A stretch of DNA of 64,000 nucleotides from Undaria pinnatifida (lineage: Eukaryota > Sar > Phaeophyceae > Laminariales > Alariaceae): positions 12,131,580 to 12,195,579 of the forward strand of contig JABAKD010000030.1 of the NCBI GenBank assembly GCA_012845835.1, read 5' to 3'. Both the position numbers and the translations under genes were made by a program. The notes beneath the pieces are model-generated. The model was not told the DNA's origin. It saw only the letters and a list, made by a program, of their open reading frames with translations, and did not search any database. Below, in pieces: positions 3,748 to 62,296 of this stretch. The stretch's first letter is position 1. Each line of letters begins with the position of its first letter.

Positions 3748-3857
3748 AAGATGCCTATTAATAGTACCTGGTACATTAAGTTTCATGTCTATTTTGTGGG
3801 TGGGCTGTGTGTTCGGTTGCGCGAGTGTCTCTATTTGCGACCCTCGTCGTGCAGAGG

Positions 3858-4397
3858 GTTAATGTTAATGATAACGTTAATGTTAATGCTAATGTTAATG
3901 TTAATGTTAATGTTAATGTTAACGTTAACGTTAACGTTATCGTTAATGTTACTGTTAATGTTACTGTTGATGTTGATGTTGATGTTATTGTTGATGGTAA
4001 TGTTATTGTGAATGTGAATGTGAATGTGAATGTGAACGTGAATGTTAATGTTAATGTTAATGTTAATGTTAATGTTAATGTTAAAATGAGTGTGAATGTG
4101 AACGAGAATGTGAATGTTGATGTTGATGTTGATGTTGATGTTGATGTTGATGTTGATGTTGATGTTGATGTTGATGTTGATGTGAATATTGATGTTAATG
4201 TTGATGTTGATGTTGATGTTGATGTTGATGTTGATGTTGATGTCGATGTTGATGTTGATGTCGATGTTGATGTGAATGTGAATGTGAATGTGAATGTTGA
4301 TGTTGATGTTGATGTTGATGTTGATGTTGATGTTGATGTTGATGTTGATGTTGATGTTGATGTTGATGTTGATGTTGATGTTGATGTTAATGTTACT
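3858..4397. repeat. Hexanucleotide array (GTTAAT)n / (GTTGAT)n
   Basis: About 540 bp of 6-bp units, GTTAAT, GTGAAT and GTTGAT in blocks, starting about 110 bp after the IQ-motif gene stop. Both strands stay open for long stretches (Val-Asp/Asn on +, Ser-Thr on -) only because six is a multiple of three. I do not call a gene here. Confidence 0.95.
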
Positions 4398-5693
4398 GTC
4401 AATTTTGTTGTTTTTCCGGTAATTGAAAGTGGTGTATGTGTGTACCAGGTAGTATGTGTTACATCCCGGCGTCTCGTGTACAGATTGAGCGTGAAAATGT
4501 ATAGGTGGAAAGTAGCGTCCCGGCAGCTTCTCGTGTTTAGGTTGAGCGCGAACTATTTTATTCAGACTTTTTGTACCGGAAACCGCCGGCGTGCACGACG
4601 GATTTTACAGTAAGTAGTAGTCGCAGTGCAGCAATATGTTTGGTATTTGGTATATAGAGATGGGTATAATAGTGGCAAAGCTGCCTGCACCCACCGACCG
4701 GTGGACACATCTGTGATAACAAATAGATAGATGCGATATACCCCCACTCGATCCCCTTGGTCGCACCACAATCAAGCCGCCTATTATAGTTCGTGTATTC
4801 TCAACGCACACAACAGTTTTATATCTCTCGCTTCATCTGGCAACCTCATTTGCAACCGCCCTGCTACTTTCTACTCACTCAGTCATTCGGTTCAAAGATG
4901 TCGTGAGTCGATCGTCGATGTGACTGACGGCTATTAACAAGCAATTCCAACGAGAGTTACAGTGCGCACAGCACACGCACGCCCCGAATGGTGCCCAACC
5001 CTCTTTCAGGACATTTTTTATCAACTTTTTATTATCCTCCGGCGGATGTGACGAAATAAAGCGTATGCTCACCACACTTCCACGTATTTTCATACACGTC
5101 GTGCGTCGATTTGACTCAATTGCGTTCGCAATCCAGCCGGTTTTTTGGCGTGTGTTCTTCGTTTCCCGCGATAGCGATAGCGCGAGCTGCCCCTAGTCCC
5201 TACCGCTGGTCCCGGTTACTACTCCGGCCAGCGCAAGCTATAGTTAGTTGTATACGGATGCGTGAGTATGTTGTTGGTATGTCGACCCGACCTGACCTCT
5301 GGAGGTCAGGCGCAGTGGAGACAGCCACCTGGAACGCCATCATTGCGGGTAGTGTGGGACTTGCCCAAGCCCACCCACTAACAAAACCCCCGGCCATGAG
5401 AAAACAGCCTTCGTCACGACGGCCATGGTCCAGTTACGGTCCACCCTACCCATTTGGCCGTTGGTCCTTGGTACGAACTAGAACTACTTCGACAATGTTA
5501 TAATTAGACTGTGGGTAGGATGTATCACTTTCGCGGTAGGTGGTAAAAATGTGGCAAAAACAAAATAAAAATCACGACACACATAGTACGGGCAGGTGAC
5601 CACAGACAGACCGCGAACCAGGACAGGAGAGGATAATAAGCGAGCAGTTTTTATGTTATACATTTTTAGACTATCGAAAAAGAGTAAAATGAG

Positions 5694-5815
5694 CGCCCAA
5701 ACGTTGGAGGTGTCTCTATTAGGAGTAGGAACGGTGCTCCGTCTCGAAAGGTATGCGTGGTCAATGGTCAAATGACTGAGCCAGCAACAAATGAGTACGC
5801 CCCCCCCCCCTCCTG
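5694..5815 (+). repeat. Dispersed repeat with C-rich tail, copy 1
   Basis: Starts GCGCCCAAA, holds GGAGGTGTCTCTATTA and GGTGCTCCGTCTCGAAAGG, and ends in GAGTACG plus a poly-C tail. It aligns along its length with 41684-41826 at an estimated 80 percent identity. Shared ends and a homopolymer tail suggest a SINE-like element; no pol III boxes were recognised. Confidence 0.75.
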
Positions 5816-7097: not shown

Positions 7098-7169
7098 GTT
7101 TGGTTGCTTCCGCCATTTACCGTACCCTATTTTTTTTTGTTTGGTTGCTTCCGCCATTTACCGTACCCT
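7098..7169. repeat. 31-bp perfect direct duplication
   Basis: The word GTTTGGTTGCTTCCGCCATT with its following 11 bases occurs at 7098-7128 and again at 7139-7169, separated by a T-rich 10 bp. Confidence 0.9.
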
Positions 7170-7320
7170 GATCGGATAGCTAACAAACCAAACGGACCAA
7201 AGCCAAACTCAAAACGACGCACGCGTCGCGTCGCTCGCCCAAAAAGCAAGGCATCGCTAGCCCAAAACGACGTAGGAGCAGAGCAAGGCATTGGGACTCC
7301 AATACGTAACTAAGGTGAAA

Positions 7321-7343: not shown

Positions 7344-8193
7344 ACCCCCCCTTTGGGCCCTACTACGACTGCTGCACTAGCCGCATCGCCTTCGGTGCCT
7401 CAGGAGGACTCAGCAAGCAAGCAACACAAGCACAACCTCAAATCACTCAGCTAAACAAAAATCGATTTTGTGTGACCATCTAGAATATAAATCTACCTGG
7501 TAACTACAAGCAAAAATGGCTTTCATTCACCAGCATCAATCGTCATCGAAGCAGCCATCGCGCAAAGCTTGTCTAGTCTAGCCAGCCCATTCCGACCCCA
7601 CGGCAGCATCGCTGTTCGAATGTTAACTCCAGTATTTGGTGCTTAATTTTGAATCCAATTGAATCGTATCCCCAGCAGCAGCATCGCTACATCGCTAATG
7701 GATCATTGCTAGCTAGTCTATCTACCCAGCTCGTTTGACCCTTACTTGATCCTCAAACCCAAAAGCAGCGCTGCTCATTCCGATCCCACCTGAGCACACT
7801 CCGACTCCACCTGAATCTGATGAACTCCATTAGCATCGCTGCTCATTCCATCCAACCCTTCCTGCAAACAAATTGAAATCTTAAACCCAGTTATTCAGTG
7901 ATCCCGATTGAATCTTAAAACCCTTGAAAAAAAAACTAACCCGCCGACGATTCGACTTGAGGTTAGACTCAACCCCAGTGATCCCAGTGATCCGATCCCA
8001 CTTCAACCTTAATCCTAGCGGCCACTGCATCCTAGTTATCTTAGTGATCTTAGTTAGTTCTAGTCATCCCATCCATCCATCCCAGTTGAGTTTATCACCT
8101 ACCAGGTACCTTTTAATCTTATCCCAGTGGCAGCAGTTGGAAATCAACTCCAGCAAGCCCAGTTCTTAACGCTAACCTCTCTAAATGACTTAC

Positions 8194-11100
8194 TTATTCT
8201 GACCCTACTTGAACCTTGACCCCAGTGGAAGCAGCCTTCGGGCTGCTCCCAAAGTAAGACCCCTTGAACGGGCTCCGCAGGGGACTCCTCCACCCCCCCT
8301 TCTTCTCCTGCTTCTTCTTGGGCGTCCCAGCCGCAGCCTCAGCCGCAGCAGCTCTCTCCTCCTCCTTTTGCCTCGCCAAGCCTTCCTCATCGAAGAAAGC
8401 AACCGACACCCTCAGCGGACTCCGCGGGCCAGGGCTGTGCGCCCCCCTCGACCTCCCGAATACTGGGCTCGACTTGCTCGGTGCCTGATACACTTCTTCT
8501 TCAGACTCTTGCGGGGGTTGAGGGTTCCCAAAGAAAGATCCCCCTACTCCCTTCCATGGGCTGCGGGCGGCAGCAGGGGAGCGCGGGCCGGGGCTACGCG
8601 GGCCCCGGGTGGGGCTTAGGGTGGGGCCGACTTCCATGGGAAGATCGCCGATCGGGCGCGGGCTGCGCGTAGGGCTCCTGCTCCTGCTCCTCGTAGTGCC
8701 GCCGGTAATTACAACGGGAGTCCTCCTGCTAGGGCTTCTAGTATGACGTTCATGCTGCTGCTGGTGGTTGCTGCTGCTGCTGCTGACGCTGATGCTGATG
8801 CTGCTGGCGTTCCTCGTGTGGTGGTGGTTGGTGCTGGCTGGGCTCTTGGTGGAGCTGGTACGAGTAACCGAGGGTCGCTCCGGTTTGGTGGGTTCGTCGT
8901 ACGTTTCGAAGAAGGATCCTCTCAGAGGGCTCCGGATGGGAGAGGCCAGGCGAGCAGGGGAGGTGCTGCCCCCTCCTCCTGTCCCCCGAGTAGGCGACAT
9001 GCTCCTAGTAGGCGACGACGTACTGCCCCGAGTGGGGGAGGCGCCTCGAGCAGGCGACCTGCTCCGCTCGGTCGATGCTGAATGCTTAGGCGATTGCTTT
9101 GGCGATGATGTCGGTTTGTTGCTGTCGTCGTCAGGACCACCAAAGAAGGATCCCTTGAAAGGGCTGCGGATGGGCGATTGTAGAGTGCTCTGCCCGTCGG
9201 TACGGTTGGTGCGGAGGGGCGAGCGGAGTGGGCTCTGCAGGGATACCTTCCACGGGGACTGGGGGGGGGTCGCGTTGGGTGTGCAGATTTGTGTGTCCGA
9301 TGTGACGAGGCGTCTGCAGTGGGGGCACTTGCCGGACATGAAGTTCTTGTTGCCGACGGTGGAGTACCTGGACAACGGATACAGGAGGTGAGGGAGGCGG
9401 GTTTGGAGTGGGGGGGGGGGAAGAGAGATGGGAAAGGAAGAGACAATATAATTTAGTCGCTTGTCTACATTATGAATACTGCAAATAAATTAAGTCTTAT
9501 TCAGGGCATTTTTCAGTTGGTGGGATAATAAAGTCTTACTTAGGTTAGAGCACGAGGGGGTAGCGGGGGGACGAACGAACACGAATGCACTCAAGGGGTC
9601 TCAAACCCTCGAAACCGAGCTTACCATAGCAACGACGTTAAGCGACTGGATAGGGCTATACCACCAGTGACCGGGTAAATTAAACCTGAAATGTTGATGT
9701 TACGCCGTATCAAAGGCACACACCGCACGCAAGAGAAAAAGCGGGGTACCAGAACTATCGACGGTTTTCTTTCTCGCAAGTGTAATCTTCAAAAGACAGA
9801 CGGCGACAAGGCAATGGGCGCGAATGAAAGCACGCTGTGCTTGCCGCCGACCGGACTTGCGTTGCATGGGGTCCGACTGAACTAGCATGGGAGATGGTGG
9901 CGGGTGGGGGGGAAGGGGGCGTATGGTGGCGGGTGGGGGGAAAGGGGGCGTACTCACTAGAAGGGGCGGGGGGCGAGAGGGGTGAGATAGGAAAGGGATG
10001 GGGAAAGAAATAGCGGATTGTCTTCAATTAAAGTGCAACTCAGAGTGGTATTGATCAAGTAAGAGAGGGGAGGGGGGGGGTAGATGTGAAAGGTAGATAA
10101 ACTGTTAATAGCGGATTGCCGAGGTTGATGGAATGGAATGGAATGGAATGGAATGGAATGGAAGCCAGCGGAATGAATACTTCAAGTATGTTCAGTTAGT
10201 ATATGTCGGGTTGGGTTGGAAACTGAAGGGGAAATAAATACTACAGCAGTAGTGTGGATTTTTTCAGTCGAAATGAGTGAAATGCATGGGCGAACAAACT
10301 TCTCTGATCGGTTCGCTCACATACCAGACAATATACATAGTCTATACATTTAGACTACACACGTGGCGCGGGGTGTGTGTAAAACAGGACAGTAATAAAT
10401 ATACTAGTCTAATCCCATACGCGAGTACGTACAGCGATACCAGGTATAACCGAGAAAAGCAACACACTCACGACGATCTTGAAAGCTTGTGGGTTGAGTA
10501 AATAAAATAAATACCTGGTAGGGGGCGGTCGCGTGGGACGCGAAACTCCCGCGTTTTGCATTTTTGTATGTACATTTTTTTCCTACTCTGAAGTATGAGT
10601 GCTACACTATCAATACTGCCTTCTACATCTTGACCTTTTCTATTCAACACCCGAGTACCCGTGATCCATGCATGATATATTCGAGGTTTTGCTGCATGAG
10701 CGAGTGGACTAGACTATATAATGCCTGGTATTCATAAAAGCAGCGGCGATACGGCGGCAGGATTGAATGAGCGAGCGAGCGAGCGAGCGTCTCGGGGGCT
10801 GCTTCTTCGAATACATTACGTCTTGGTAGTAGCTTACCCTGGCACGTTTGTAGTCTGGTATGCTTGGGTACCTGGTACTATTAGTATATTTTCGCGCTTT
10901 TCCCTGCTTTTCGTACCCGGTACGTTTGACATGCGATATATGCGACTGCACAGAAAATGCTGACATATCTCTCTACCCATGAAGGATCAAGAATCAGTAC
11001 GGACACTGGGTGTGCTCGCTTTGCTCGGTGCGCTCAGCACAGACACTGGGTGTGCTTGCTTCGCTGGGTGGGCGTAATAGGTGGGATGTCATGTCGATCT

Positions 11101-13285: not shown

Positions 13286-13883
13286 CCGCTCGACCCACGG
13301 CCTCTCCTCTGTCTCCTGTCCTGTATGACAGACCAGTACATACAACTGGACAGCAGCATGCAGTGGTGGTAGGTAGTATAGTAGGATTATTGGTAGTGAT
13401 GTGTGTGGCACGTGGTAGAGGAGGCCAGTCCTTCACAAGCATCCACGAACTACGAGCTATGAATCCTGCGCCTGCGCCGATCGTTCGTCCGTTCGTTCGT
13501 TTTGTTGGATGGATGCATGGATGGATGCATGCACAGAGCTCGTTGTAGTGCCAAAAGTGACACGTTGGCGACGGTTGACCTTTTTTTTATATTATTATTA
13601 TCATTTGTAGGGACTCGAACGGTTTCGAAACTCGAAATGTTTACAAGTAGTGTAGCTAAATAATGGCTAGACTAAAAAATGCCAGCGGGCGAAACGATAA
13701 ATAAACGAAAACTCGGAAGCGAACGAACGAACGAACGAGCGGGCGAGCGAACGAGCGTACTATACAGACGAGCAATCGATCAAATTCAATGCTCTGGCAT
13801 ATACTCGTATTATTAATAAAAGCTGATATTCTCATCGACAACAACAGATAGATACTTTTGTTCGTACCAGAGAGCCGGCGCAC

Positions 13884-13975: not shown

Positions 13976-14694
13976 TACAAGTTGACAGGCCGATAGTGCG
14001 GGAGCGCGAGTTGGAGAAGTTCGTGCAAATCGACGAGCATAAAAGCTGAAAGCGGGAACGCTGAATGAACAGTAACAACATGCATGCGCGACAAAAAGAA
14101 AGACACGTACCGGGAGAAGGAAGGGAAGACACCTTCTACTACTACCTCCTATACCTGTGACCACGGCTTGTTGTGCAGAAGCTCGCTTGTAGGGTAAAAA
14201 GCTCTTCTTCAAGATTACGGTTTGATTGTGAGCCGGAAGAAAGTAAAAGTGATGACACCAAAAAAATAAAAATAATGACAGTCTAATAGGTCTAGTCTAA
14301 TGTAAACAAAAAAAGATGATGCCTTCTGATAGGTGGCATCATTCAGGGTGCGGTTGTTCTTGCAAGAGGTGACCCCTTGACATCAGGTATACTACCGGCT
14401 TCTGTACTCCCACCTACGTAGAGGTTCGAGTATTTTACGGCATACATGCGAGATTGTTTGATGGGTTGTTGCTTCTCCAAGGGCTCTGTGTAAATCGTGT
14501 TCTACGAGCCTTTTTTTACAACAATCCTGCAACAAAAGCCTATTTTTATACTTGTACAATGTAAAATGCGAAGGCACCGATCGATGCCATCATACCTCTT
14601 CCGCGTGTCTGGAAGTTACGCAAGATAACCCTGGGTAGCATACGTGTGGGTAGATGCTGCATGTTCTTGGTACTACAACAAACAGCTAGTAGTC

Positions 14695-14721
14695 TATATA
14701 TATATATATATATATATATAT
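14695..14721. repeat. (TA)n microsatellite
   Basis: About 13 TA units. Confidence 0.95.
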
Positions 14722-14783: not shown

Positions 14784-14880
14784 TAGTCTAAGGCTTAGTT
14801 TGGGTACACTACTACAACAATTACAGTAATTGGTTAACCGTTCATCTGTAGAGTTGTCAAACGGACTATATATTATGTTA
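14784..14880 (+). mobile_element. TRIM-like terminal-repeat fragment
   Basis: TAAGGCTTAGTTTGGGTA, then TTGGTTAACC and GTCAAACGGACTA, in the same order as in the 85-bp terminal repeat of the 50139-50520 element. It stands alone and is diverged: a solo or truncated fossil. Confidence 0.65.
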
Positions 14881-15799: not shown

Positions 15800-18317
15800 C
15801 TAACACGTGGTCACGAAAGGTACGAGCGCTCTGATAGGCAGTTTACAGGTAGGCAGGAAAATGTGTGTGTGAGAACGCGATAGCGTCTTGGACCGATCAT
15901 GACCATCGCCGTATGACTGGGTACAATGCTGTACCACCCGCGCATACTACGACCATCGCATAGCGCAAGGCGGGTACTCGTAGCAGGGGCACACAGCACT
16001 GCTGCCTATTATACAACAGCCACTCTGGTGCCGATGCTATATTGAGCAGGGAGGAGGGGAGGATCGCAAGGTGGCGGGTCCACTTCACCGCTGCATGACA
16101 TGAAGAGATGTCTGGGACACACCCGTATCCCGTTTCTGGTTTTAGTCTTTGAGGTACGTGCCCCGTTGTCACAAACCTGTGCTCCGTTGAAGAAGGGCTT
16201 CGTTGCATTACAGCAGTATCCAATCACTCGGGCGGGTGAAAGGTCTCTGGTAAGAGGAGGGGACTCATTGCCTTGACTCGTCCCTTGATTTTCCTAAACG
16301 CACATGCCACGCAAGCAATACGTCAACCCTAGCCCGTGTTCTCCAGTACTACATCCTGGTCCTTTATCCTCTACTGGTTTATCAGGTAAAACCATAACAA
16401 CAGCCCACCCTGATGAGCCGTGTAAGCATATACACGGCAGATTCAGCTCCACGAACTAGAACAAGAATGCCAGATGCGCCCAGACCTCGCTGCCACACCT
16501 CTACCTTCCGAGGCTACGCCGCCTCATGAAGGCACATCAAAAGGGAAAGAAAAGGAAGCCTACGGCCTGTCCGTAAGCAAGGGAGGCGAAAAATTCAAGC
16601 ATCGGAGGTACCGAGGAAGTACCGCCACAGCCCGAGGAAGGAGAGAGGGGCAGGGTGAATACATATCTTTGAAGACAGGAAAGAGACAAAACCCTCACCA
16701 CATCCCCAGCGGTGGGGGGTGCGAACATGTTCGTTAGCTCCGATGGTGGCAGAGGGGGCAGGGAGGGCAGCTTGATAGGCGAGTTGTTTTCTGACGGGGG
16801 TCGGTATTTTTGGGCCGGTCACACTTGCTCTGCAGTCACGTGAATAAGTGGGCCAGTGGGTAGTAGTGCTATATAACCAACAAAACGATGGGTCGTCGGA
16901 AATTGAAATCTCCTTTTCGTCACGTACGAAGACAGGGCGCCCACGATTATTCTCCTATCGTGGGGCTGTGGCTGCTGTACCACGTTACCACAATGGTGTT
17001 AATTGATAACTACAGTAACTAACCGTCATACTCAAAAATCCCCAAATCAACAGGACATGCCTTCGGAAACTGGAAGAAACACTACAGTAGCGAGGGGGGG
17101 GGAGGGAGGGCAAAAATCCGCTGAACGGAATTACACTGCTGCTGTTGTACAATATCTATGTACCACTACATCCGCGGCAAGGAGTGGCGCGGGGGACATC
17201 GATGCGAAAGGCAAAACACCAAACTACATCCCGTGCCGCAGTATGAATGGCCGCATTCCTAAACAACAAACCCTTACACTAGATAGAGATGTTTCACGTC
17301 CGTCATGTTTCAGAAAGAAGACTGGTTAAACAACAGGCCCTGCACCCTTAACTGTACGAGGCGGTCAGTTGAGCGACCGACCCCTCGAGCGCCAGAATCG
17401 TCTATGGTGATCACCGCAGCTTGAGTGACATGTCTTTGCCGAGAGAGTGTCGTACACTTTTACAGAGTATCTACAGTACATGTCTCCGGTTGCACCGCAA
17501 TTGATTGTGTAACGGTGCATCTATCAGATATTTACGACTACAGCGTTTTTCGTTGGTATCGGCCTCGGTTCACCGCCCGCTCTTCCAGCGATGGCAACTT
17601 GCCGGGGGGTTCTAGGATGGTTTCGAGTTGCACCTGCTGGAGGGTTTCGAGATACTCTACGCCGACGTGACGGCCGGCCAGTCTTAGACCCTACGAGGGG
17701 GGGCAGTACACGCAGAGCTCCTCGGCGATTACAAGGGCAAGTGCAACTTGAGTTATAATCAACTCGTTTGGGCGACGTACAGCGAGCGCCAGCCAAGCCT
17801 TGGACGTCTCGATTGCGTCTTATCTCAGACGAATGCCGCCGTGCAACGCTTGAAGTGCGGTCGAGCTTGAGGTACATTGGGACGAGGGCTGACAGTAAAT
17901 AATAATAAGAAGGTTGGCGAGGTCGTGGCTGCCCGATGGCTTGTCCGCCCACAAGCGCCAGAAATAATGTTTGCCGCGTTTGCACTGCTGTACTGAGGAT
18001 TGAACATGGACCACGCAATCTCAGAGTGTGTTTGGCAGTTAGATGAGCGTGCTCACGAGGCACCGACGGGGGTGAAATACTGAGAACCCTACATCCCGAT
18101 TCTCTCAGCAGCACACTCATTCTGAAAAGGCCGTGATTGCAGATAGGTGAGATCTCTGCCCCCCTCCCCCTCGGCGTGAATTCCTTGGTTATATCGAACA
18201 GAAGGCTCATAATTTTCCGCTGCGCGTCGATTATCGTCGAACTGTTCCGCCTCAAGCCTTTGCGCTTTCGACGACGGACATCAAGAGACACATTGAAAAA
18301 GTTGTTTGATTTTGGGT

Positions 18318-19182: not shown

Positions 19183-19925
19183 TTTTGGGTATCCTTGCTA
19201 ACACAGAAAACCAGCTAGTCGATGCTAGCGCTCTGTTGGCGACGCTGGCTCAAGACGGAGCGTAAACAAACGTAACTCGTATGTAAAGAGCCGACAAAAA
19301 CTGTGAGGTCTGTATGGTAAGTGGATCGTAAGTTTTAATAATTCGGAGCTAGGGTAAGGAAAGGAGTACGGTGCGTTTGCATTGCCTCCTATCCTCTGAG
19401 TGATGATACAGCAGGGAGGCACTTCTTGTTGGTCCTCAACGGCGCTGCAGTTTCTTTTCAGACGCGGCTGTGCGCAATACAATCTGTCCACGACTAAGCC
19501 CGCTGAAATCGAGGCCACGCCAAATGTTTGTCGATGAGTTTTGTTGTATAGTAGTGGCTTGGTTGTGCCAGGTATTAGACTATAGCAGTGTCAAACGTCC
19601 ACCAGGATTTTTCATGGCTGCTAGGCGGGTTATGGTACGTCGTTGTAAGGTGTGGAGGTTCGTCGGCGCTTCCCCGGTGTCTCGTCACCATCAGCCAAGT
19701 AACGATCTACGAATGCCGCTCTGTGGGGCTGAAACGATCGATTAAGAAACGATCGAAGTTCGATTGACCCCTTAATGGCCGCACCCACGTTTGTGGGGAC
19801 AAACTACTTGGAATTATTATTAATATAATTTTTAATATTGTTTTAGTTCAAAAAAGGGTTGAGACACGATTTGACCACCGACAATATGTCTTTTTAATGG
19901 TCGCGTTGGAAGAGTTCTACAAGGA

Positions 19926-22900
19926 TTAATAAGCATTTTGAACACCGGAAAAACGGCTTGCCTGGTCTCGTTGGAAGAGAATACCAGCAAAGAACGCCTC
20001 CTCCACCTCCTTGTCCTTGTCCTTCTGCTCCAAGGTGAGAGCCATTTGATTGCTTTTCACTTCCTGGGCGCAGTCGAACGCTCTCTCTAGCATCGTGTCC
20101 AGCACGAACGCGTCGGCCGCGATCGGGTTGATGTGCTGTGCCTCGAGCTCCCCGGCTACCTGTCGTGCGACCGTAAAAAACACACGCTAACCTTTTCGGG
20201 ATCCATGAATACCAACCAAAGAAGCGACGAATGCCATCTAGGCGGAGCGCGCAGCAGTACGAGTGCCGCTGTGCCGCCCGCGTGTCCTGCAGCATCCTTG
20301 CGTTGCAGAGTGAGTGGGTACATCCCCTACCGCCACAGCCCGTGTTGCTTGTGTTGCTTGTGTTGCTTGTGTTGCTTGTGTTGCTTGTGTTGCTTGTGTT
20401 TCTTGTGTTGCTTGTGTTGCTTGTGTTGCTTATGTTGCTTGTGTTGCTTGTGTTGCTTGTGTTGCAAGTGTTGCAAGTGTTGCAAGTGTTGCAAGTGTTG
20501 CTTGTGTTGCTTCGCCTGGCATATGCTGCAACCTTGAATTACTTTTGATTTTTTTGGTTCCGAAACCTCCAAGGAGTCAATAGTGTTTTGTTAACAGGTC
20601 GAAGCGTGACCCGGGAGGAGTCGATTATCGAAAAAAAGGCTGCACTCATGAGGAAAAAAGTGGGCTTGTTTGTCATCATCGTTGGCGCGGAGTTTGTCAG
20701 AGGCAAGGATAAAATCAGAAGTCCAGCGTGCGGGCGTGGTATGGTTCTAGGGTTGTTCTGGTAGAGATAGCTACCATAGGAAGGAGCAACAATATATTCA
20801 TCATGCACGTATCTGCTTGCTGAAGACTCACAAATCCACTCCGGCTATTGCAATGGGAAAGCCCTCTACTCTTCACAAGGCTAAGGAGAACGATCGCCAC
20901 GCGGAATGCGTAGGGAGGGCCCATATGTAAATGGAGAGACGTAATTTCCACATTCATGTAGCAGTTCCAGTCATAGTCTATCCGGGGAAGCGGGGAAGCG
21001 GTGGTGAGGGCGCGGACTGAGGACAAAGGGCCAGTTATTTGTTGCATGTCTCGCGTGCTCGTATAGCTTTGGTCGTTCTGATACAGACAAATTGCGTACG
21101 TAGACAAGTCGTGGGAATTCAGTGAATTCGCACAGAAGAACTGCATGGAAATAACAAATACAAGGTACAAAGTCTAAGCATGACGCCTCAACTTGACAAT
21201 GCTACGAATAAGACCACGTCAGCAAGAGTGTTCCGAACCCAAACCTAATCCCAATTAAGCGCACATGTCAGGGTCGACGTATGCCAACCGTATACACGAC
21301 GCGGTGTACTTGACAATTTCCCAACCATTCCGCGGATGTAGAAAGATCTCACTCACCTCCTGCCAAGCCTCCCCCACTCTGAAGTCCATGTACGACGAAG
21401 CCATGTACGACGCCTTGAGATCACTGGGTCCTAGGCCGTCTGTGGCACCGCCATCAAACCCCACCATCCCCAATACGGCCGCTATTTTCCCTCGCAGATC
21501 TAAGTGACCCATGGCCTTCGAGAACAGCGAATCAACACCTGAATGTGACGCGTTTGTCTCCTGCCCCCGTCCCTCGCTCTGTCCCGCCTCCGCCGCTCGC
21601 TTCCCAGCCTGCAGAGAAAGTGTCATCGCCGAAGGTGTTTCGCTAGAATTTTGTGTTTCGCTAGACGCTTGGGAGATCCGGGCGGTCTCCAGTACCCCAC
21701 CGTTTTCGCTCATTACCGCTGCTAGACCGGCAACAACGCCATCTGCTGAGGCGCCCGCGGTTCTCTCTGCCGATTTGTCGAGCTCCAGCTTAGTGTCGCT
21801 GGCTCTTGACCGGATCTCACGAGCACCCATTGTAGTATCGCATCCGCTTGCAGTCGTCACAGCGTCCGTGCTTGCCCCGTTTGTCGGCGTGATAGATCCC
21901 TCTCGCTTGGCAGACTGCGCAGTCCACTTGCGGCGGCGGCTTCCCCTGCCGTGTGACTGAAGCGGCTGCCATAAGTTCTGCAACACGCCGTTTGGACGAG
22001 AAACCCCGAGTCGTGCTTCTTCGGCGACCCACAAGCGCACCATGAGCTGGGTGATACTGAGCATGTTGAGATCGCTGCGCCAGGCCCGCGCGTACGGGAT
22101 GGAGCGCTTGTTGCGCAGGAGGTCTGCCACTATGCCGGTGACCTTGGGAAGGCGTGCGAGAGATTACCGTTCAGCAACACGACGGGTTTACAATTAACGG
22201 GGAGTCCGAACCCCAGCCACTTAGTCTAGCTACTCAGGCCTGTGTGACCGCCTGTAGAGAGTGTACCAACACCATTCCCGAATAGGTTTTGAGCCTCGAC
22301 AGTTGTGGTGTGCACATCAGGGTAATCTCGAAGACGTTTCATGATACGAGAGCTGACTGTGGACGAGTGCGGGGAGAGCGGTTCCATCTTGGGCAACACG
22401 GTGTATGAAGTCACACGCGGGTGTTAGTGTCGAGGGCACAGCATATGCTACAACATACACTGCAGCACATACTACAGCATATACTATGGCATAATCGAAC
22501 CCACGAGTACAGACGATTCACGGGTGACAGGGTGTCTTCTCTCCCTATAATACGATTTGCTCGGAAGCACACGGTTATGTAAATTATTTTTGTTCTAACA
22601 ACGTGAAATGCTCTCTGCTAGCGATTGAAAATGCCCACAATATGAATAGCTCCCCTCAGATACACTATTCAGAGGATGTGTGGCGGAGTTACTAACGAGT
22701 TGTAAGTGTTCGAGTTAGTGTTGCCCTCAGACAGGGAGCGACCGACAAAGCCAGCCCCATAACTCACAACGACACTTTGCCCACGCCTGGAACTCAGCAC
22801 TATTGGTGACTGCAGTTGATAGCGTTACTACAGCCTATGCCAAAATCCGGTTTGGGCATTTCGATGGAAACCGCACTTAGACCTAGTGGTATGAGAAAAA

Positions 22901-34992: not shown

Positions 34993-36585
34993 TTCCACGG
35001 CTACCAAAAGGCAATTTCCTCTCGAAACTGATCGTGGGATGTTTTTTTTTTTGCGTAAGATCGTCGGCTGAATTTGTTTCTTGTAACAGTCTAGTAACAG
35101 TCTACTGCGGGCGAAAGGAGGGTAGACAGATGTATGCAGAGGGGTGTTTAGAGTGGAGCTAAGCGCGGTGAGCTGTTGTGTCAGGTGGGTGGGGTGTCCC
35201 CGGTGACACGTCGCCAAATGTCCGATGTGCAATGCATGGGTGTGAGATCCAAATGACAAGATTGACTTGCGGGCCTACAAGAGTGCAGCATTCGCATACT
35301 ACGCGTTATGACTGTATTTTGCGCGTTCGGTCAGGCGTTCAACATCGCCTACATGACATTTTGCGGGGAGGCCGAGTATACCTACAGCAGTGGCCGCTAA
35401 TCGGAAGCGAGACGGCTGTGGGGCTGCGGGTCGTTTTATTCGACGCATTATTGCTTTCTTCGTTGTGCGCTGCGCCCAATCACGTGCCGGCATGGTCGTA
35501 GAGGGTGTACAAGTGAAGAAGTTGACCCCGCGGATTTGGTCTCTTTATGGTTTTTGTAGATGCAAGGCGTTTGGTGGTTTTTGATGACATGTCGTTTTTT
35601 TGGTGATGAAGAAGGCGGATCGCACTGCGCACCACGTGGGGGCTAAACTTTTGGGAACGGCCTTGGTAATCCCTGAAAACAGCTCATCGTATTAGCACTG
35701 AAGACTTGAGGGCTTCGTGTGTGGCGGCTTGCACCTTTCGCCTCTCTCCCGTGAAGTTGCCGTCCATAATAAGGTGGTGGTGACTGATTGACAAGATCAA
35801 ATATCGCGTAACAAAATAGCTTACGGTGTCGGTGGTGGGATGATAAATAGTTGGCCAGTCTTTGATGGAGGCCTGTTTGTTATAAACACCGTTGGACGTC
35901 GTGATTCGAGACAGAATATGCGTCGTGGCCCTTCAGAGCCACATTCTACGTGGGTCCTCATGTTGTCCCGCATGTTTCCCGGTGCTGTCTTTTATCTTTG
36001 TTTACACCGGGAAATTGCGGTGTATGTGTACCGTACAGAGGTTGAAGTACTGTGTACGCCCTCTGTTTGTCGTCAGCTTGTTGCAAACATTTTTTACGCA
36101 GTGCCTTATTTGGTAGCCGCTGTTAATGCACCAGAACATGCCAGTTTTATCTAAGGTGCCCATGACTCAACTATATTGCTCACGACGCGATTCCATCTTG
36201 GATTGCATGCCAGTATACCATACGATAGCTCTTGACACATTAGGGCCCGTTTTGGATTGCACGCGCTCGGCGGCGTTGCAAAATGTCCGGAAATAAACCC
36301 CCAGTTGAATTTGTGTGGGTGGCTGATGTTTTTCTCGGTGTGCTTGTTTTTCGTCGCATAAGATGAATATTGCGGACCTCGCGGAACCGACGGATCGAAA
36401 ATTGGGGAAGTGTGGCATCATCGACGCGTTCAACTCTGCGCCTGCCACACGAAAGAGTAAAAAAACAGCCGTTACCACTGTTACCATTGTAATAATAGTC
36501 TAATAGTCTAAGTAGGTAACATTGGTGAGCGGCAGAGACGAAGTTGCTCAAATATCGTGCGGCTCAGTGCCCATTACCTGGTAGA
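34993..36585. other. Convergent intergenic region, no gene seen
   Basis: Lies between the 3' ends of the one-helix protein gene (+) and the DPF protein gene (-). Frames here are short and without motifs. A TACCWGGTA motif at 36575-36583 lies 2 bp beyond the DPF gene stop. Confidence 0.6.
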
Positions 36586-50520: not shown

Positions 50521-50649
50521 GTGGGGAGAAAGGTGTATCCGTCATGTAACTGCTGTACACGAATCAGTCCCGCCCTCGCCCGCTTCAACGAATAATAATG
50601 CCCCTAACATGCACCTTGGTCCGTTGCACAACTAACTACGAGTAAATAA

Positions 50650-51050
50650 TTCCTCAACAAATAAATGGCGTCGTCGACAGATTGGGTTTTTGGGTCGCGT
50701 GGGTTCGAATCCCACCAACTGCCAAAATAAACTTTTACGACTTTCCCCCGACATGACAGGTCGCGTGGGTTCGAATCCCACCAACCGCCAAAAATAAACT
50801 TCAAGACTTTCCCCCGACATGAAATACATATGTCATGTCGACCTTGCAAAAAAAAAAAAAAAAAATGCTCTCCCCGGTATCCCAAGGAAATGAAACCGCT
50901 TGGATATTGATATGTCCGCCCGTATATCTGCCGACCTGCTATCCTGCCGTTTCAGGGGGAGGGCGTGTTTTAATTTATAGTTTGGGTAGACTAAGCAAAT
51001 AGTTATCCTTTTGCAAGGTGTTCAAACGGACCTGTGTGTGACTTGTGTGG
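50650..51050 (+). mobile_element. Older TRIM copy with an internal duplication
   Basis: Same family as 50139-50520 in opposite orientation. The tRNA-like unit GGTCGCGTGGGTTCGAATCC with its flank occurs twice (50693-50760 and 50761-50822). An 18-A run follows at about 50851, then GAAATGAAACCGCTTGGATA, a purine tract and a diverged 3' terminal repeat from 50966. No clear 5' repeat. Fossil. Confidence 0.65.
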
Positions 51051-51742: not shown

Positions 51743-54700
51743 ATGGCTTCGCCTGCAGCGAGGAGCTGGCCTTTGCCCTTCCTCTCATTCATCCAGCTGC
51801 TGCACCTTCACGTCGTGCTGCTTCTTGCTCTCTTTGGTGCTTCGGAAGCTTCGGGGGGCATCGTCTGCAAGACTCGGGGAGGATGCCCTCTGTCTCGCCT
51901 GCAGGCGGCGTTCCAGACGCCCTTTAACTCGCTCTCGATGGCTCTGCATGGACCAACGATGAGCACCTCGTCTAGTAGTACGAGACCGTGGGGTGCAGGT
52001 GCGGCGCCTTCTTTCGACGACTCTTCTATTCCCGCCTCAGGAGTAGCAGCTCCTCGGTGGGTTACCTCAGGAGCTGCTTCCGTCTCGCGGCCGGCACGGG
52101 TGCTCCGCTCGCGTAAGGTGGACGTCCTTCCCTTGGGCATGTCGGCTGTCGAGACGAAGCAGGGCAACAAGCGGGCTGCGGAGAGCGAGCCCGAGTCTAC
52201 GGAGACCAAGGCTGAGAAAAAGGCCCGGAGAATGGCGGCGTCGTCTACCCCGCTGGGGGTGCACGTGATCGGGCTGTCTCACCACAACGCTGGGGTGGAT
52301 GTGAGGGAGAAGCTTGCCGTGCCTGAGCACGAATGGAACGATGCTTCAGCTAAGGTATTACCGACTAGCTTGGCGTTCGCTCTTTGTCTCACTGCTCTGC
52401 GAGACGTAGATTCTAATACACTATCCAAAACCCACAAGATGGCTTTTGTTGGCACGTCGTGCCTCACTTGATATGAGTGTGCGTGGTACCTGGTTCAGGC
52501 AGCAGCACGAAGCGAAGAACGGAAGCAAGCATTTTCATGACGGGAGTATATACAGGAATGAAACGCGATTGCTGGGTTACGAGAGTTTTCCTCGCGCAGT
52601 CTGTATGGCTCGCCTGCTGTCCTCCCGATCCTCCCACCAGAGGCTGCTTGGTAGTGATTGTGGAGGCAACCTACCCGTAGGCCGTACAGGCAGAGAGAGG
52701 CGAGGTTTACCACCGTCATGACCAACATGCTTCGAGTAGGTCTGGCTCTTGTTGGATTACCTTCGCCGGTTGCATGGACCGACGGTTTTTATTTTCTAAT
52801 TTTGACCGATCGTATGAATTGATCTATGGAGGCAGTACACCGCCCTGCTGTATGCTGGTACCAGGTACCAGGTATACAACAAGCACACCAGTCGCTTCAT
52901 GCGCTTTATCCGACTGACCGCTCTTGGCTAAACGTGCCAGAGCGCTTGTACGAGTACTCGAAAGTTGGTGGGTCTCGAAACCCTTATTCCAGCTGATCTT
53001 TCTGTACCGGCTCACGCACTTCAAGGTAGAATACAGCGAGCGCCGTCCACCCCCGCCCGTTACTACTGACTGCTGTTTAAGGCCGCGAAGGCATTCATAT
53101 TCATTTTTGTGGACGTACCAGGTTTCATGTATTAAAAGCCTCCAAACTGGACTCCTCCTCCTTCATCACTGACGAGGAGTGACGCTGCTGTGGGCCCTGA
53201 CTCGAAGTTCAGTATGTGGCTCTGCCACCTGTTGATACCTGGTATAATATTCAAGTAACTTCTGTATAAGGGGAATTGATTCACCCGTCTCTTTTCCCAC
53301 CCCGCCGCAGCAATCTAAACAGGCTTTGCAATGCTTGCTCTGCCCTATGATACGTACTGGCACGATTTAGTCTTGACTGCTTCTATTGTTGCTGTTGCAA
53401 CTCGCGATGCCTCGGCTCCCTTCTTCTCCCATCCCCCCAGTCTTCGGCGCTGTCATAGTCGTACATCGCCAATATGGACGGAAATTTAAGGACCGTTTGA
53501 TATTTATATTAAAACCCAACCTTTCTTATATTTCCATCCATTTTATTTACCCGCAACCTCCCCTGTCCCTCTTGGGCTTCCTTCTGCTTGCTGCGTTCTG
53601 TCCGGTTTGCTTGCTTTAGCTTTGCGAGTTCCCGAACATCAGCGAGGCCGCGGTGCTGTCCACCTGCAACCGGTTCGAGGTGTACGTTGCATCCCACGAC
53701 TCGCACGCTGCCATCCGAGATGTGATGACGTACCTCCAGGAACACTCGGGCCTCTCACAGTCGGAGTTGAGGCAAAACCTGTTTATGCTCTCTTTGGAGG
53801 ATGCGGTGTGGCACTTGCTCAAGGTCAGCGCGGGGCTGGACTCGCTCGTTGTCGGAGAAGGACAGATCCTGTCCCAGGTGCGACTTGTGGATGGCGAATG
53901 AGGTGGTTCAGGACCGGAGACGTTAGGGTTTTGCTGGGGCTGGAGGGTTTTGCTGGGGCTGGAGTGCACGTATTTGTGTCGCTGCTGTGCATGTGATCGG
54001 GGACAACGGGGATACAGGATGCGGGTTTGGAAGATGACGAGCTCTTATATCATTAATATTATATTAGTACGTAAGATGTGTGTTTTCCCTCCTCCTTGCC
54101 TTGTCGCTCTGTGTTGTGGGTTATGTGACGTATCGTATTTGAGCGGACTGCGACAAAAATGGCGCATGACGCATGACGTGGCTGGAGGCATGGCCTTCAG
54201 TCACTACTGCTGCTGCTGCTGTAGTCACCATCAGCGATCTGTCCCTTTGCCAGCTGTGTGGGTGACATAACAGAGATCATACTCTGTACCAGGTACCATG
54301 CACAATCCCAAGTCTATAATAGGGTGTGAAAACGTGAAAACCACGTCACGACGAGTGTACACATGTATCTCGTGAGTAGTACAAACAGGAGTTCCAGCTG
54401 CATGTTGGCTTTGTCTTCAGTGTCCTGTGTCACTTTCTCCCTTGGGGCGGGATGCATTTTTGGTTCTGAAAGGCGCTCGAAGGCCCTTCGTGACGGCTTA
54501 TTTCATTTCTTGGTAACGAACATATCCTAACGAGATGACTTTGGGGCTGACAAGGAAAACGTTGAACTTTTATCTCGTAAGCCGGAGAGCGCCACATCCA
54601 CGAGCACCGTGTCAGGTTGCCTGTACGTGTGGGAACAGTCGTACGAGCAGAGGTGGAGTGCTGGCTCGTCTCGTACTACGGCGAGGAATAACAGGACGTG

Positions 54701-57700: not shown

Positions 57701-59577
57701 GGAGGCGGATTGCTCAGACGTGCCAGGCGTTTTCGCGTACGATGTAGATGACCTTAAGATGGTCGTGGCGAGAAATACAGCGTTGCGGCGACGCGAGATG
57801 CTTGAGGCCGAGGATATCTTGGCGGAGGAGCACATGAAGTTCAGCGGCTGGCAGCAGTCTTTAACTGCGACCCCCGCGATCTCTAAGATGCAGGAGAAGT
57901 TCGAGGACATGCGCTCGCAGGAGATGCGAAAGGTGCGTTTTTGCGAAGGATTTTGGCGTTATTGAGGGAGGGTGTCAGGGTCGTGAGAGGAGGAGATGCG
58001 GAAGGTCGAGGGTCTGGGTTTTGTGTCCACGTTGCTCCGCGTTCTTGTTGAGGGTTTCGGGGTCGTGGTCGGGGATGCAAGTTGGAGGAAAGTGCTCCGC
58101 TGGTATGCGTTTGTACGGGTTGCATATTATCAGTGCGCAGAATGATTATGGACCGCGACCGCCGTGGGTACAGTTGTCCTGTTGATCTTGACCCTCGCAG
58201 CATCTAGGGGAGTCATCGACCGATATCCTCCAATATGTCCTCGAAGAGGAATACATCTGTAAAATCGCGCGGCTGGAGTAACACGTAGCTTGAAAACATG
58301 AGTATCGACCACTGAACTGGTCGAACCTACAATTGACTTACTTGAAATATCTTCGTTCACGTGGTGTTTCTGTTAATGGGAGTTACTAATAATAGTAACT
58401 TGAGTGCCCGAATTACAGGGTCAGTTTGGAGGGCTCAAGTCCTGGTGGGATCGGGTCCGGGTGGCATCAGGCTGCCAAGAAGCAGGGTGCAAAATCGCGT
58501 GTGCGTGTGTTGAACCATTATAAAGCATTCGCGAAACTCGAGTATTTGGCCCGCGGACGGGTTTTGTTGAGTACCATATATGTCGTTATACCCACCTGGT
58601 ATACGATATGTGAGCTCTACTGGCCAGGCTTGAGTTGCTTTTGGTGTATCTGTGCCCCGAAGCGTGAGAACTGCGTACGTATGACTTGGCCCAACTACTG
58701 TACGACAAAATGGTTGCTTGGCTTCAAGTGTCAAGCCCTATCCCTGTCCGCGACCGCCTGCAAAAATTATCGGAAGATGTAATGAGGAATTAAGAGCGCC
58801 CATTCTATACGTACCACCCTGTTGGTACCACCCTGTTGAAGTTGAACCAAGTCATTAGCGCCACTGCGAATAATCGCTGTTGAAGCACAAGTCGTTCTGT
58901 TATTTTGTTCAATGCGGGAGTCGTCGTCTGAATTTTTTGTCGCCGTGTTTTTTCGCGGCTGATCTCCACCGGATTGGTTACCCCGATGCTGGAGTTTTAA
59001 GGTTGATGGAAGAAAGCGTGAGAGCTTGGCTGGCCGTTACTGGCTTCTTTTTGGCAGCCATGCGTTCCCTCCGCTCGTCATCGCTTTGCGTCGCGAACGG
59101 TTTCGCCACCAAGCTTCTCGGGAAGTTTCTTGTTATGTTGGCGTTTTTTTTTCGCTTTTGTTGCGGGCGAGAGTCTGAAAAACCTCCACAATCAGCTAGC
59201 TTTTGGAGACTTTTGTTGACGGTTGATGTTGCAGGTTTCTGTGGCATTAATCTCTGTCACCTCTACACCCACGTTTTGGGTGACGTTGCGCATTATATTT
59301 TGTGTGGGATGCTTGCTGCAGTGCTAAACCGTTCCTGCTCTGTCACTGTTCCCTCCCGGTGTTCTCGACCCCCTTTGGCCTCGACCAGGCCGGGAACAAG
59401 CTGACAAACCTGTCCAAGAAGGAGATCGAGGTGGTCGAAAAGCTGTCCAAGGGCATTGTCAACAAAATGTTACATGGGCCTATGACGGCCCTCCGCCAGC
59501 CCGACGGGCCGGAAGAGAAGAAAAGGATGCTCAAGTTCCTCAAGGCCATGTTCAAGCTGGATATCGATAAGCTCTGA
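51743..59577 (+). CDS. HEMA: Glutamyl-tRNA reductase, plastid-targeted; five exons
   Basis: Exons 51743-52354, 53620-53877, 55350-55473, 57295-57932 and 59389-59577 (stop TGA) join in phase to 606 aa. The enzyme reduces glutamyl-tRNA(Glu) with NADPH to glutamate-1-semialdehyde, the first committed step to chlorophyll and heme in plastids. A hydrophobic signal peptide (residues 9-35, WPLPFLSFIQLL and on) precedes a Ser-rich transit region and a Lys/Arg-Glu linker (about 145-170). GLSHHNA (near 183) opens the catalytic domain. The active-site Cys220 lies in STCNRFEVY. Then come SLVVGEGQILSQVR, the NADPH site GAGKM (364-368), VNRS, DISVPRNV, and the dimerisation domain ending IVNKMLHGPM. All key residues are present. 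The ATG was chosen because upstream in-frame starts are not ATG. I see no classic ASAFAP Phe after the signal peptide, so the cleavage site is uncertain. Introns are 1.3-1.8 kb. Confidence 0.96.
56437..56511. repeat. 24-bp tandem repeat, three copies
   Basis: AAGCTTTTAGCTTCTTTGTC plus GAGC repeats three times almost perfectly, in intron 3 of the glutamyl-tRNA reductase gene. Confidence 0.95.
58180..58350 (+). repeat. Dispersed repeat family B, copy 2
   Basis: CAGCATCTAGGGGAGTCAT, CATCTGTAAAATCGCGCGGC and ACACGTAGCTTGAAAACA match 34465-34640 in order, and part matches 39147-39215. In intron 4 of the glutamyl-tRNA reductase gene. Confidence 0.6.
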
Positions 59578-62296
59578 GCCTGCCCCTCAGCTTGGCAGCT
59601 TTGCTTTGTGGCGGCGCGCGATTAACGCAGCAGCCGGCCGTGGGTGGGAGGGGGGCAAGATGCTGGCGCCAGGGTAGATATTTGTTGTGCTTTCGATGAT
59701 GTCGGCGCATCGGGTGAAGGTTGGCGAAGGGGGCGCTGCGGGACGTGCAGCCAGGGTAGCACAGGGTGACATGACATGGCATGTTTCGTTTCTAGGGGCT
59801 CTATTTTGTCTTTAGCCGTATTTTTGGTGGGTTTCCGTCTCTTTCGACGGTTTTCCATATTTTTGCAGGCTTGGTCTTGCGTGGTATTGCCGGTTTTCTG
59901 TCTTTTTGAACAGTTTCCGTCTTTTGTACACGGGGCAGAAGCGGCTGGGAGTTGTCGGCATATTCCGTGTTTTTTTTTTCCGGGGGGGGGGAGGGAGGTG
60001 TCGTCGGTGCCTGTATTGGCCAGGGCTGTACTGACCAGGGCTTGGCTCGGGTACGCCGTCCAAGTATTAGGGGTTTAGCAAGCGTGATCCGTGTGATAAG
60101 TGATGTCATAGCGTTAGCCGTCGCCTTTCTCAGACGAGCAAATCATTCGAAGATCCGACGATAAAACTAAATCAAATCACATATCCTATCTTGAAATCAA
60201 TCAGATTATCACCGTCCGCGATTAGACTGCGCTGGTGGAGGCGTGTCTCGTCGTATGCCTGTATGGTGGCGTCGGCATTCTCTTGGCGCCCGCGGAAAGC
60301 CTTAGCCGTTGCACCTTTTCAGACGTACTAAAACTGCGAAAATTGTGGTTCTGTTTCCGTGTATTTGTCTTAAAGACGTCGGTGCGGTTTTTCGTGAAGG
60401 GCCTGGTTAAGCTTGAGCTGCTTGGCATCAGGTACCTGGTACATCGTAGCAAACATGGCGATGTCACAAGGCACATCGAGGACCGGCCAACTCGTACGCA
60501 CAAACCTCAGAGAACAGACATTCCAAGTATTAGACAGTGCGCAGGCGACAAGCAATCTCCCGGAATGATTGGCACGTTCAAATTTAAGGCAGTGTGCACG
60601 CAGCAAGCAATCTCTCACGAGGCACCAATAATGCGCACCTACAGAGAAGATTATTATTAACAGTTGAGTTCCTATCGATGCGCGGTATCAGCGCCAAAAA
60701 TACAACGAACAAAGGCGGGGCCAGACGTGATTCTTTGTCAGAGCGTGAGTGACTTGTTGGTGCTATTGATAGTTACAATCGTGCGACAGTGTTTCGTTCG
60801 GAACTTGTCAAGACCATCTCGTGAGCTGCCTGCACTGAGTGCTACACGCACTCACTCCAGGAACGGTTGTGTTCCATTTTGATATTCGCTCCACAGGTCT
60901 ATTAAAACCCCCTCTAGAGAAAAATTAGCCGTCAAAAGTGACCACTCCAGATCGTGATTGCAAGCAGTCCTCGATGCCGAGGCAGAGGGTGCGTCCGACC
61001 TACAACAACGATGAAAGATGATCTCTCCGATACGTGCGGCATGATACTACGTATGATAGTCGTAGAGTAGCACGCTCCCGCTAGTCGGTTGACAAGACCG
61101 CACCAGCACCAGCACCGGCACCAGCACTAGGCATACTCTTGGGCGCTACACCGGGGCTACAAAAAGGTTAATCGTCGATCCCCGGCTTCCTCCCAATTGG
61201 TGGGATCAATCGGCCAGATAACAACTGTTTTCAAAGCACGCGACTAACTTTAACATAGACTGGAAGTCCCGAGGAATCCGGTCAATCTCGTACCATACCA
61301 TACATAGCCCGTTTCATGTACCATAATAATACAAGGCACACAATCGATACGATGCCGACCAATGAGCAAATAACTGATAGGTTATACAACGTCAGATACA
61401 AAGAGGAAGAATCTATGGTACAATAATCGATCGTGTGCATTCAAAAGCGATCGCGATTGGAAAGAAACAACTACCGTGTCGTGTGTATGCGTAGCGTAGC
61501 GTCTCACTTCGCTCGACGAGTAGGCGGAGCTAACAAACAGAAATCGGGGGGGGGAAAGTTGTCGACACCAAGACTTGACAAACAGCGCACAACCTCTTCA
61601 ACCAACCGCAAACACACCTACCGTACGGCTCGAGCAAGAACGGTATTCTTTTTTCCCCTGCTTGGCAGAATGCGAGCAACGGCGCGCCCTCGCCCATCAA
61701 TTATCGAACCCTCATCAACAGAATTTTAGGACAAGCATGTCCACCTATGGTCGCACTGCACGACCGCCATCAACGAAGAGTCGATCTTCAGTGCGGGTCG
61801 ATTTATAGTGGAAGGATAGAAACAGGCTTTGGCCGAAACGCCCGACTTGTTCATGACGTTTCGAAATAATATATTGCTCGACGAGCGTTCTCGCCGACCA
61901 CACCCGCGCCGCTGCCGTACGTCACACGCCTTGCAACAGGAACAACGCGCCTCAAATCTCCATTCCCTACTTCGTACATTTGACACAAACCACGGGAAAA
62001 AACTGCGCGCGTGGGGAGAGGGGGTCGAAGAGTTAGAAACGCTCAAGTCCACAGCGTCAACACCGAAAAGAAAAAGCTGCTCTTCGTCATGCCCCCTCTA
62101 GCCTTTGTTGCCTGGCATATATTTTTCGCTGTCATGGCCGATCGGCGCCTCCCAAGCTTGAAAGCGGTCCCCAGGAGCGTCACGTACGTTCCGCCGCAAG
62201 AGCGCGAACAAAAAACGACCGACACAGCCGGCACCCAGGCTATCGCCCCTCCCTCCCGTTTCCTCCCTACCCTACCCTATCCTAGTCCACAACGAA
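59578..62296. other. Convergent intergenic region, no gene seen
   Basis: 3' flanks of the glutamyl-tRNA reductase (+) and PDZ protein (-) genes. A CAGCACCAGCACCGGCACC run lies near 61103-61125. A direct repeat of about 45 bp (core CAAGCAATCTC) occurs at 60535-60560 and 60590-60615. A 141-codon + frame at 60235-60660 has no motif and spans that repeat, so I do not call it. Confidence 0.6.

Follow-up and report, generated by a model that had tools for sequence, protein, structure and literature searches.

The 64-kb stretch of the Undaria pinnatifida genome analysed here (GCA_012845835.1, contig JABAKD010000030.1, positions 12,131,580 to 12,195,579 of the forward strand; hereafter the window) carries 21 exact copies of the word TACCWGGTA, which are probably the excision footprints of a Tc1/mariner-like transposon family, that is, of cut-and-paste elements that target TA. 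The form and the statistics of the word support this reading, and the case is further made by analogy with a shorter word of the same build, TAGWCTA, for which one site, TAGACTA, could be compared directly with unoccupied relatives. A third word, TACGAGTA, is poorly supported as a footprint. We infer the type of transposase, a 5-nt stagger and a like mode of origin for the 9-bp and 3-nt words; TACCWGGTA is not filed here as a proven member of the Tc1/mariner footprints. The first-pass annotation of the window had offered a protein-binding site, a methylation site or an insertion target. The last of these came nearest, albeit that the word would be a scar left after excision and not a target that existed beforehand; protein binding is the main rival.

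In 100 dinucleotide shuffles of the window, TACCWGGTA was found 0.34 times on average and at most twice, and none of the shuffles reached 21. An order-3 Markov model predicts 0.43 copies for both forms together, and models of orders 1 to 5 predict 0.16-1.2 copies per form, while 11 copies with a central T and 10 with a central A were observed. The over-representation that had first been noted by eye was thus borne out, as were 20 of the 21 starts listed at that time; the copy placed at 54297 lies at 54287. A compositional or simple-repeat artefact is hardly credible at all: the window is rich in simple repeats (poly-G, CAG, hexamers and others), but the copies are spread over 16 one-kb bins and exceed by far what shuffling and the Markov models yield. 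Only one TACC-GGTA word in the window has a C or G at its centre. As A and T occur there in near-equal numbers in both orientations, TACCWGGTA is a single, non-palindromic 9-mer that can be read on either strand. A splice or ratchet site (CAG/GTA), which would have one orientation, was ruled out by the same 11:10 ratio. When the arms TACC and GGTA were combined with spacers of 0-14 bases, among them TACCTAGGTA, enrichment was found at the one-base spacer only, and there is no general surplus of palindromes with a one-base spacer (254 vs 264 for arms of four bases, 71 vs 69 for arms of five).

The longer form RTACCWGGTAY fits 15 of the 21 copies, the same number as counted before, which amounts to a weak R...Y preference of one base per side; past that base, the flanks are at background level. 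None of the copies lies inside any of the 31 self-similar blastn pairs of the window, from which it follows that they do not belong to one repeat family. The earlier remark that the flanks differ and that this is not one spreading repeat could therefore be confirmed. It is most improbable that the copies are the remains of one short repeat or miniature inverted-repeat transposable element (MITE) family, decayed save for its end sequence. It is generally known that transposons end in short inverted repeats and that such end words can be over-represented, but the sequence shared outside the word that marks a dispersed repeat was not found, and with TA on both sides of a five-base core there is no space for an element; convincing end pairs were not seen either.

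All 7-, 8- and 9-mers of the window were counted, and a word was kept if it occurred no fewer than 10 times and reached five times its order-3 expectation or more. Excluded were poly-C/G with its variants, repeats of CAG and TAA, and words found in six or fewer one-kb bins (arrays). Besides words contained in or overlapping TACCWGGTA, the only survivors were TACCWGGTA itself (21 vs 0.43 expected, 16 bins), TAGWCTA (19 vs 3.3, 12 bins), the sole 7-mer to pass, and TACGAGTA (13 vs 1.8, 10 bins). Shuffling gave a mean of 4.1 and a maximum of 10 for TAGWCTA, and of 1.1 and 5 for TACGAGTA. The three words, which together make up 53 sites in the window (Table 1), have the common form TA-x-TA, in which x is CC(A/T)GG, G(A/T)C or CGAG/CTCG and has complementary arms around a mismatched centre. 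When TA was replaced by AT, GC or CG frames and tandem arrays were masked, simple repeats or much weaker words were obtained, such as ATGTACAT (6 vs 1.0). At three of the 19 TAGWCTA sites the three preceding bases, which begin at 7571, 10707 and 14290, are identical and give GTCTAGTCTA or GACTAGACTA; it looks as though a scar word had come to lie on another and a TA had been lost.

Tc1/mariner transposases cut one strand at the tip of the element and its partner a few bases further in; the 3' overhangs kept by the flanks are joined, and the end bases stay behind between the two target TAs (PMC7827188, PMC3878927). The element considered here would insert at a TA and duplicate it. Upon excision, one strand would be cut five bases inside each end, leaving a 3' overhang CCAGG (or CCTGG) on both flanks; these overhangs would anneal via CC and GG around a single A-A (or T-T) mismatch before they are joined. 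Repair of the mismatch to A-T or T-A would then change a plain TA into TA-CC(A/T)GG-TA, and TAGWCTA and TACGAGTA would be the 3-nt and 4-nt footprints of two sister families. The model predicts the word TACCWGGTA, an even A:T ratio without C or G at the centre, a random strand and unrelated flanks, all of which were seen; the lone C/G-centred word is no more than could arise by chance or through a single mutation. TA borders the core on both sides in 21 of 21 copies, by the word itself, and all three outlier words are TA-framed. Their cores are self-complementary save at the centre (CC-A/T-GG in a 10:11 ratio, G-A/T-C and C-GA/TC-G), the form that annealed overhangs require.

The 4-nt footprint of Minos-type elements, which we take to be TA-CGAG-TA, has the same letters as TACGAGTA, although one of the 13 sites has a paralogue that is not empty. 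The ends of Mos1-type mariners presumably start with CCAGG, and the first five bases of the element proposed here would be CCAGG as well. For the Sleeping Beauty and mariner transposases, the reported nick lies three bases into the element (PMC7827188), whereas five are needed to obtain TACCWGGTA. The footprint of Sleeping Beauty and Frog Prince, C(A/T)GTA (PMC3878927, Table 1), resembles the words described here in that TA is followed by end bases that are self-complementary but for a central A/T, and again by TA, and in that 3' overhangs are joined after excision. It differs in its three-base core C(A/T)G, compared to the five-base CC(A/T)GG, and it is known from an assay, whereas many fossil genomic scars are present here and the element was not found. 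The Stowaway/mariner footprints of the Triticeae are also composed of TA, short terminal fragments and TA, and a TA could be visited repeatedly; they are varied and asymmetric (2-4 bp from one side and 1-2 from the other), in contrast to the uniform words of the window (PMC1925063).

Empty sites were sought by joining the flanks of a site at a single TA, after which the window was searched. A short interspersed nuclear element (SINE)-like copy at 50765-51044 reads GGGTA-GACTA-AGC, with TAGACTA at 50987. At this place GGGTAAGC stands in three copies, and the five bases are also missing from a fourth, which is more diverged. In a control with 1000 random TA sites from which 7 bases had been removed, 80 gave a junction-spanning match at E<=0.1 and 55 at 1e-3; for the footprint sites these numbers were 6 of 53 and 2. 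With such a match rate in the control, weak matches are uninformative and only the ungapped passage across the TA at 50987 counts. In a diverged SINE-like fragment (14787-14868), TAGTCTA occupies another TA that is bare in the copies; as the homology ends just upstream, this is only suggestive of a second scarred site. Alternatively, 5-7 bases could have been added at TA during replication or repair, or by an unnamed enzyme that makes small site-specific insertions, without a transposon ever having been there, and the SINE pair indeed shows only five bases added at TA, with no convincing element in sight. Such an origin is quite improbable, the central-mismatch symmetry being exactly that expected from two inverted transposon ends, and we know of no enzyme that adds 5-7 bases site-specifically at TA.

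The SINE-like family has a tRNA-like start (GTGGGTTCGAATCCCACC) and is present at 2030-2249, 15540-15787, 50148-50393, 50444-50520, 50699-50747, 50765-51044 and 14787-14868, several copies adjoining one another at 50.1-51.0 kb. In the diverged fragment, a longer TA-bounded insertion (14805-14823) is located at the GGGTA where another copy bears TAGACTA. A 122-bp element occurs twice, at 5688-5809 and 41678-41799, with 83% identity. TAGACTA and TACCTGGTA lie at equal distance upstream of this shared block; a TA position common to 5667 and 41655 was considered and found to be weak, with 7 of 18 bases alike between the word and the block.

Twenty one-mismatch relatives of TACCWGGTA were found, against 10.6 expected. 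The transition neighbours (nine classes) are in excess (12 vs 3.7, P 0.0005) and the transversion neighbours (16 classes) are not (8 vs 6.8), as expected of mutating, unconstrained relics; taken at face value, the excess would correspond to a mean age of about 5% divergence. The nested copies at 52859 (TACCAGGTACCAGGTA) fit a scar within a scar, made by a second visit to a scarred TA, and re-insertion of this kind has been described for Stowaway (PMC1925063). Neighbouring TACCWGGTA copies are separated by at most 50, 150, 400 and 800 bp in 2, 4, 7 and 11 cases, compared to 0.4, 1.1, 2.7 and 4.9 for random non-coding TAs (P 0.06, 0.02, 0.01 and 0.0006, respectively), which would be explained by local hopping and equally by regulatory modules.

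The latter possibility leads to the main rival, according to which TACCWGGTA is the site of an abundant sequence-specific dimeric protein, a transcription or chromatin factor, while TAGWCTA and TACGAGTA are the sites of others, all persisting through use. An exact 9-mer with weak, symmetric R/Y flanks in 15 of 21 copies would suit such a protein, and the groups of TACCWGGTA, some with sister words near, resemble regulatory modules. Neighbours from different word families are in excess at up to 150 bp (9 vs 4.8, P 0.04), the differences at up to 50 bp (2 vs 1.8) and 400 bp (15 vs 10.6) not being significant. In addition, one copy is intronic and five are located 2.9-4.5 kb from the upstream edge of the mapped exon of a CFAP69 gene. 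Binding sites usually tolerate some letters, yet there are few near-misses here, and among them only transitions are in excess; three unrelated proteins would need common TA/TA flanks; the clean SINE pair shows TAGACTA arising by a 5-bp insertion at TA; and two TACCWGGTA copies overlap in one TA. Protein binding is thus unlikely, albeit with some real claim to attention.

Proteins may recognise the core elsewhere, as GTACCWGGTAC is present, often in spaced pairs, in viral and prokaryotic loci. Among the matches listed, pairs of TACCWGGTA were found in at least 238 such loci, with 636 copies, 243 of which are GTACCWGGTAC. Bacterial contigs with repeated GTACCWGGTAC pairs, some 21-23 bp apart, are L144:60-2495, L172:595-6514 and L138:7081-7821, and in another (L153:2898-7846) the pairs form inverted repeats. 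These bacterial pairs are possibly operators or repeats of the repetitive extragenic palindromic type. Viral contigs scanned for glutamyl-tRNA reductase, CFAP69 and the SINE-like word yielded no relative. In the literature, the titles among the matches listed for TACCWGGTA and its variants are on other subjects, and searches by topic and for repeat words listed no title on it, although absence from print is not claimed. The intergenic palindromes bound by MoIsw2 in Magnaporthe are given without sequence in the text seen (PMC11481914), phaeovirus integration sites have a 'CC' core and a TACCWGGTA-like word is absent from the text seen (PMC13236599), no boundary motif is named in the text seen on the Ectocarpus 3D genome (PMC11541908), and the Amoebophrya genomes have inverted repeats at introns, again without a TACCWGGTA-like word in the text seen (PMC7789003).

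Several observations weigh against the excision of Tc1/mariner-like elements as the source of the words. Reported footprints in this superfamily range from 2 to 4 nt (PMC7913693), and from 0 to 4 for Passer (PMC9976928); the sister words have cores of 3 and 4 nt, but the five-base core of TACCWGGTA exceeds the 2-4 range and would be a variant. No credible empty paralogue was found in the window for any of the 21 TACCWGGTA copies, and the paralogue of TACGAGTA at 41708, the one such word in a repeat, carries TAGGAGTA and not a bare TA, which means that the two share an older scar or that there is no scar at all. Convincing elements with matching terminal inverted repeats were not found in the 64 kb. 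The best of 76 end pairs with a CCWGG core matched at 9 of 15 bases beyond the core, where about 0.4 such pairs were expected; the excess of pairs with 6-7 matches can, we think, be put down to the TA that stands just past the core in footprints. Among the 246 stop-to-stop frames of at least 85 amino acids, the 150 longest gave no recognisable transposase family. As mariner insertions should outnumber excisions, with about 2 insertions per excision in rice (PMC4423477), the presence of up to 53 scars without convincing elements is the main difficulty. Real footprints are, moreover, often irregular, as with Hsmar2 (PMC3770610), and shortened products are at most slightly raised in the window (TACGTA 22 vs 12.8, TACCATA 11 vs 6.0, and TAGACCTA for the GWC word 4 vs 0.7); four pairing overhang bases could explain such uniform repair. 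Near-misses of the sister words are without a transition excess (21 vs 22.8 and 18 vs 14.5), the background being larger there. Finally, no TACCWGGTA copy falls within the 5,356 bp taken as coding, as the first-pass annotation had stated in placing the word outside exons, but this is no more than chance would give (the probability of zero copies is 0.16 by length and 0.40 by TA content, not significant). With the sister words included, 0 of 53 sites are coding (0.01 by length, 0.10 by TA content). The exon list was set by the author from homology matches, sequence and coding score, one NDH2 stretch being based on score alone.

Two candidate elements were rejected. One of 550 GWC end pairs, 54222-57378, matched at 13 of 17 bases beyond the core and beat the control, but is not plausible because it ends inside one glutamyl-tRNA reductase exon and would span another. 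A 442-bp pair of inverted ends (28948-29391) is weak, with 3 of 16 bases mismatched and CCAAG as its right end. Imperfect self-palindromic, MITE-like stretches are present at 22898-23263 (about 370 bp) and 33376-33665 (about 290 bp); scar cores were not seen at the ends examined.

The genes recognised in the window are those of the ciliary protein CFAP69 (minus strand, 21.3-26.1 kb), an NDH2-like protein (near 44.7 kb) and a chloroplast-type glutamyl-tRNA reductase (plus strand, 53.6-59.6 kb). The main domain of the reductase was identified by profile and by an Arabidopsis relative; its N-terminal domain gave a weak match among frames scanned together, and two further exons were read by eye. 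Such genes, with their introns, imply a flagellated photosynthetic eukaryote, and the GC content and the length of the introns would suit a brown alga. The TACCWGGTA copies at 53236, 52859, 52866 and 60433 lie within 0.9 kb of its exons, and at least one copy, that at 54287, is intronic, between two of them. The lack of TACCWGGTA between 10.9 and 28.9 kb is real (P 0.025 against random TA sites), but the region is not all non-coding, as had been thought, since CFAP69 lies within it; it holds 13 sister-word sites. Closeness to stop codons, also put forward earlier, was found at 17 and 2 bp (18 and 2 in the earlier count) and fits open reading frames 3088-3747 and 36586-37722, for which no homology has been established. 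Scans of the window for tRNAs and Rfam families gave nothing. A GTTAAT hexamer array of 546 bp, about 91 copies, is located at 3858-4403.

Table 1 Sites of the three TA-framed words in the window
Word	Position	Strand	Remark
TA-CCTGG-TA	3765..3773	.	exact match
TA-CCAGG-TA	4443..4451	.	exact match
TA-CCTGG-TA	7494..7502	.	exact match
TA-CCAGG-TA	8100..8108	.	exact match
TA-CCAGG-TA	10438..10446	.	exact match
TA-CCTGG-TA	10512..10520	.	exact match
TA-CCTGG-TA	10869..10877	.	exact match
TA-CCAGG-TA	28948..28956	.	exact match
TA-CCTGG-TA	28966..28974	.	exact match
TA-CCTGG-TA	29261..29269	.	exact match
TA-CCTGG-TA	29789..29797	.	exact match
TA-CCAGG-TA	30580..30588	.	exact match
TA-CCTGG-TA	36575..36583	.	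exact match
TA-CCAGG-TA	38904..38912	.	exact match
TA-CCAGG-TA	39035..39043	.	exact match
TA-CCTGG-TA	41655..41663	.	exact match
TA-CCAGG-TA-CCAGG-TA	52859..52874	.	nested; copies 52859 and 52866 with one common TA
TA-CCTGG-TA	53236..53244	.	385 bp ahead of a glutamyl-tRNA reductase exon
TA-CCAGG-TA	54287..54295	.	glutamyl-tRNA reductase intron (exons read by eye)
TA-CCTGG-TA	60433..60441	.	856 bp past last glutamyl-tRNA reductase exon
TA-GAC-TA	50987..50993	.	SINE-like copy; empty-site evidence, TA alone in other copies
TA-GTC-TA	14784..14790	.	at TA of diverged SINE-like fragment; upstream homology too short for certainty
TA-GAC-TA	5667..5673	.	
TA-GTC-TA	7574..7580	.	
TA-GTC-TA	7714..7720	.	
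TA-GTC-TA	10338..10344	.	
TA-GAC-TA	10351..10357	.	
TA-GTC-TA	10405..10411	.	
TA-GAC-TA	10710..10716	.	
TA-GAC-TA	13668..13674	.	
TA-GTC-TA	14293..14299	.	
TA-GTC-TA	14690..14696	.	
TA-GAC-TA	19576..19582	.	
TA-GTC-TA	20974..20980	.	
TA-GTC-TA	22222..22228	.	flanked by two CFAP69 exons
TA-GAC-TA	34727..34733	.	
TA-GTC-TA	36496..36502	.	
TA-GTC-TA	36504..36510	.	
TA-GAC-TA	38820..38826	.	
TA-CGAG-TA	8859..8866	+	
TA-CGAG-TA	13802..13809	-	
TA-CGAG-TA	15975..15982	-	
TA-CGAG-TA	27825..27832	-	
TA-CGAG-TA	28744..28751	+	
TA-CGAG-TA	28808..28815	-	
TA-CGAG-TA	28822..28829	-	
TA-CGAG-TA	28978..28985	-	
TA-CGAG-TA	40296..40303	+	
TA-CGAG-TA	41708..41715	+	paralogue 5720-5727 = TAGGAGTA, no empty site
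TA-CGAG-TA	43031..43038	-	
TA-CGAG-TA	50637..50644	+	
TA-CGAG-TA	52949..52956	+	

Excision scars, if this is what the words are, would rank with the strongest dispersed word signals that a genome holds. Plain word counts would then recover the end sequence and the cut stagger of a transposon even where no elements survive, and with a stagger of 5 nt Tc1/mariner-like enzymes would span a wider range than has been reported. For motif finding this would be a warning, as a non-coding word could be exact, dispersed and palindromic without being a binding site. It is conceivable, albeit very improbable, that excision is so efficient and repair so uniform that little but scars is left in the assembly, with a TACCWGGTA roughly every 3 kb, as many as 53 TA-x-TA scars in 64 kb and no convincing element seen, programmed developmental removal of TA-bounded elements being a possible route; if true, this would be a ciliate-like process, but with a five-base scar, in a flagellated photosynthetic eukaryote.

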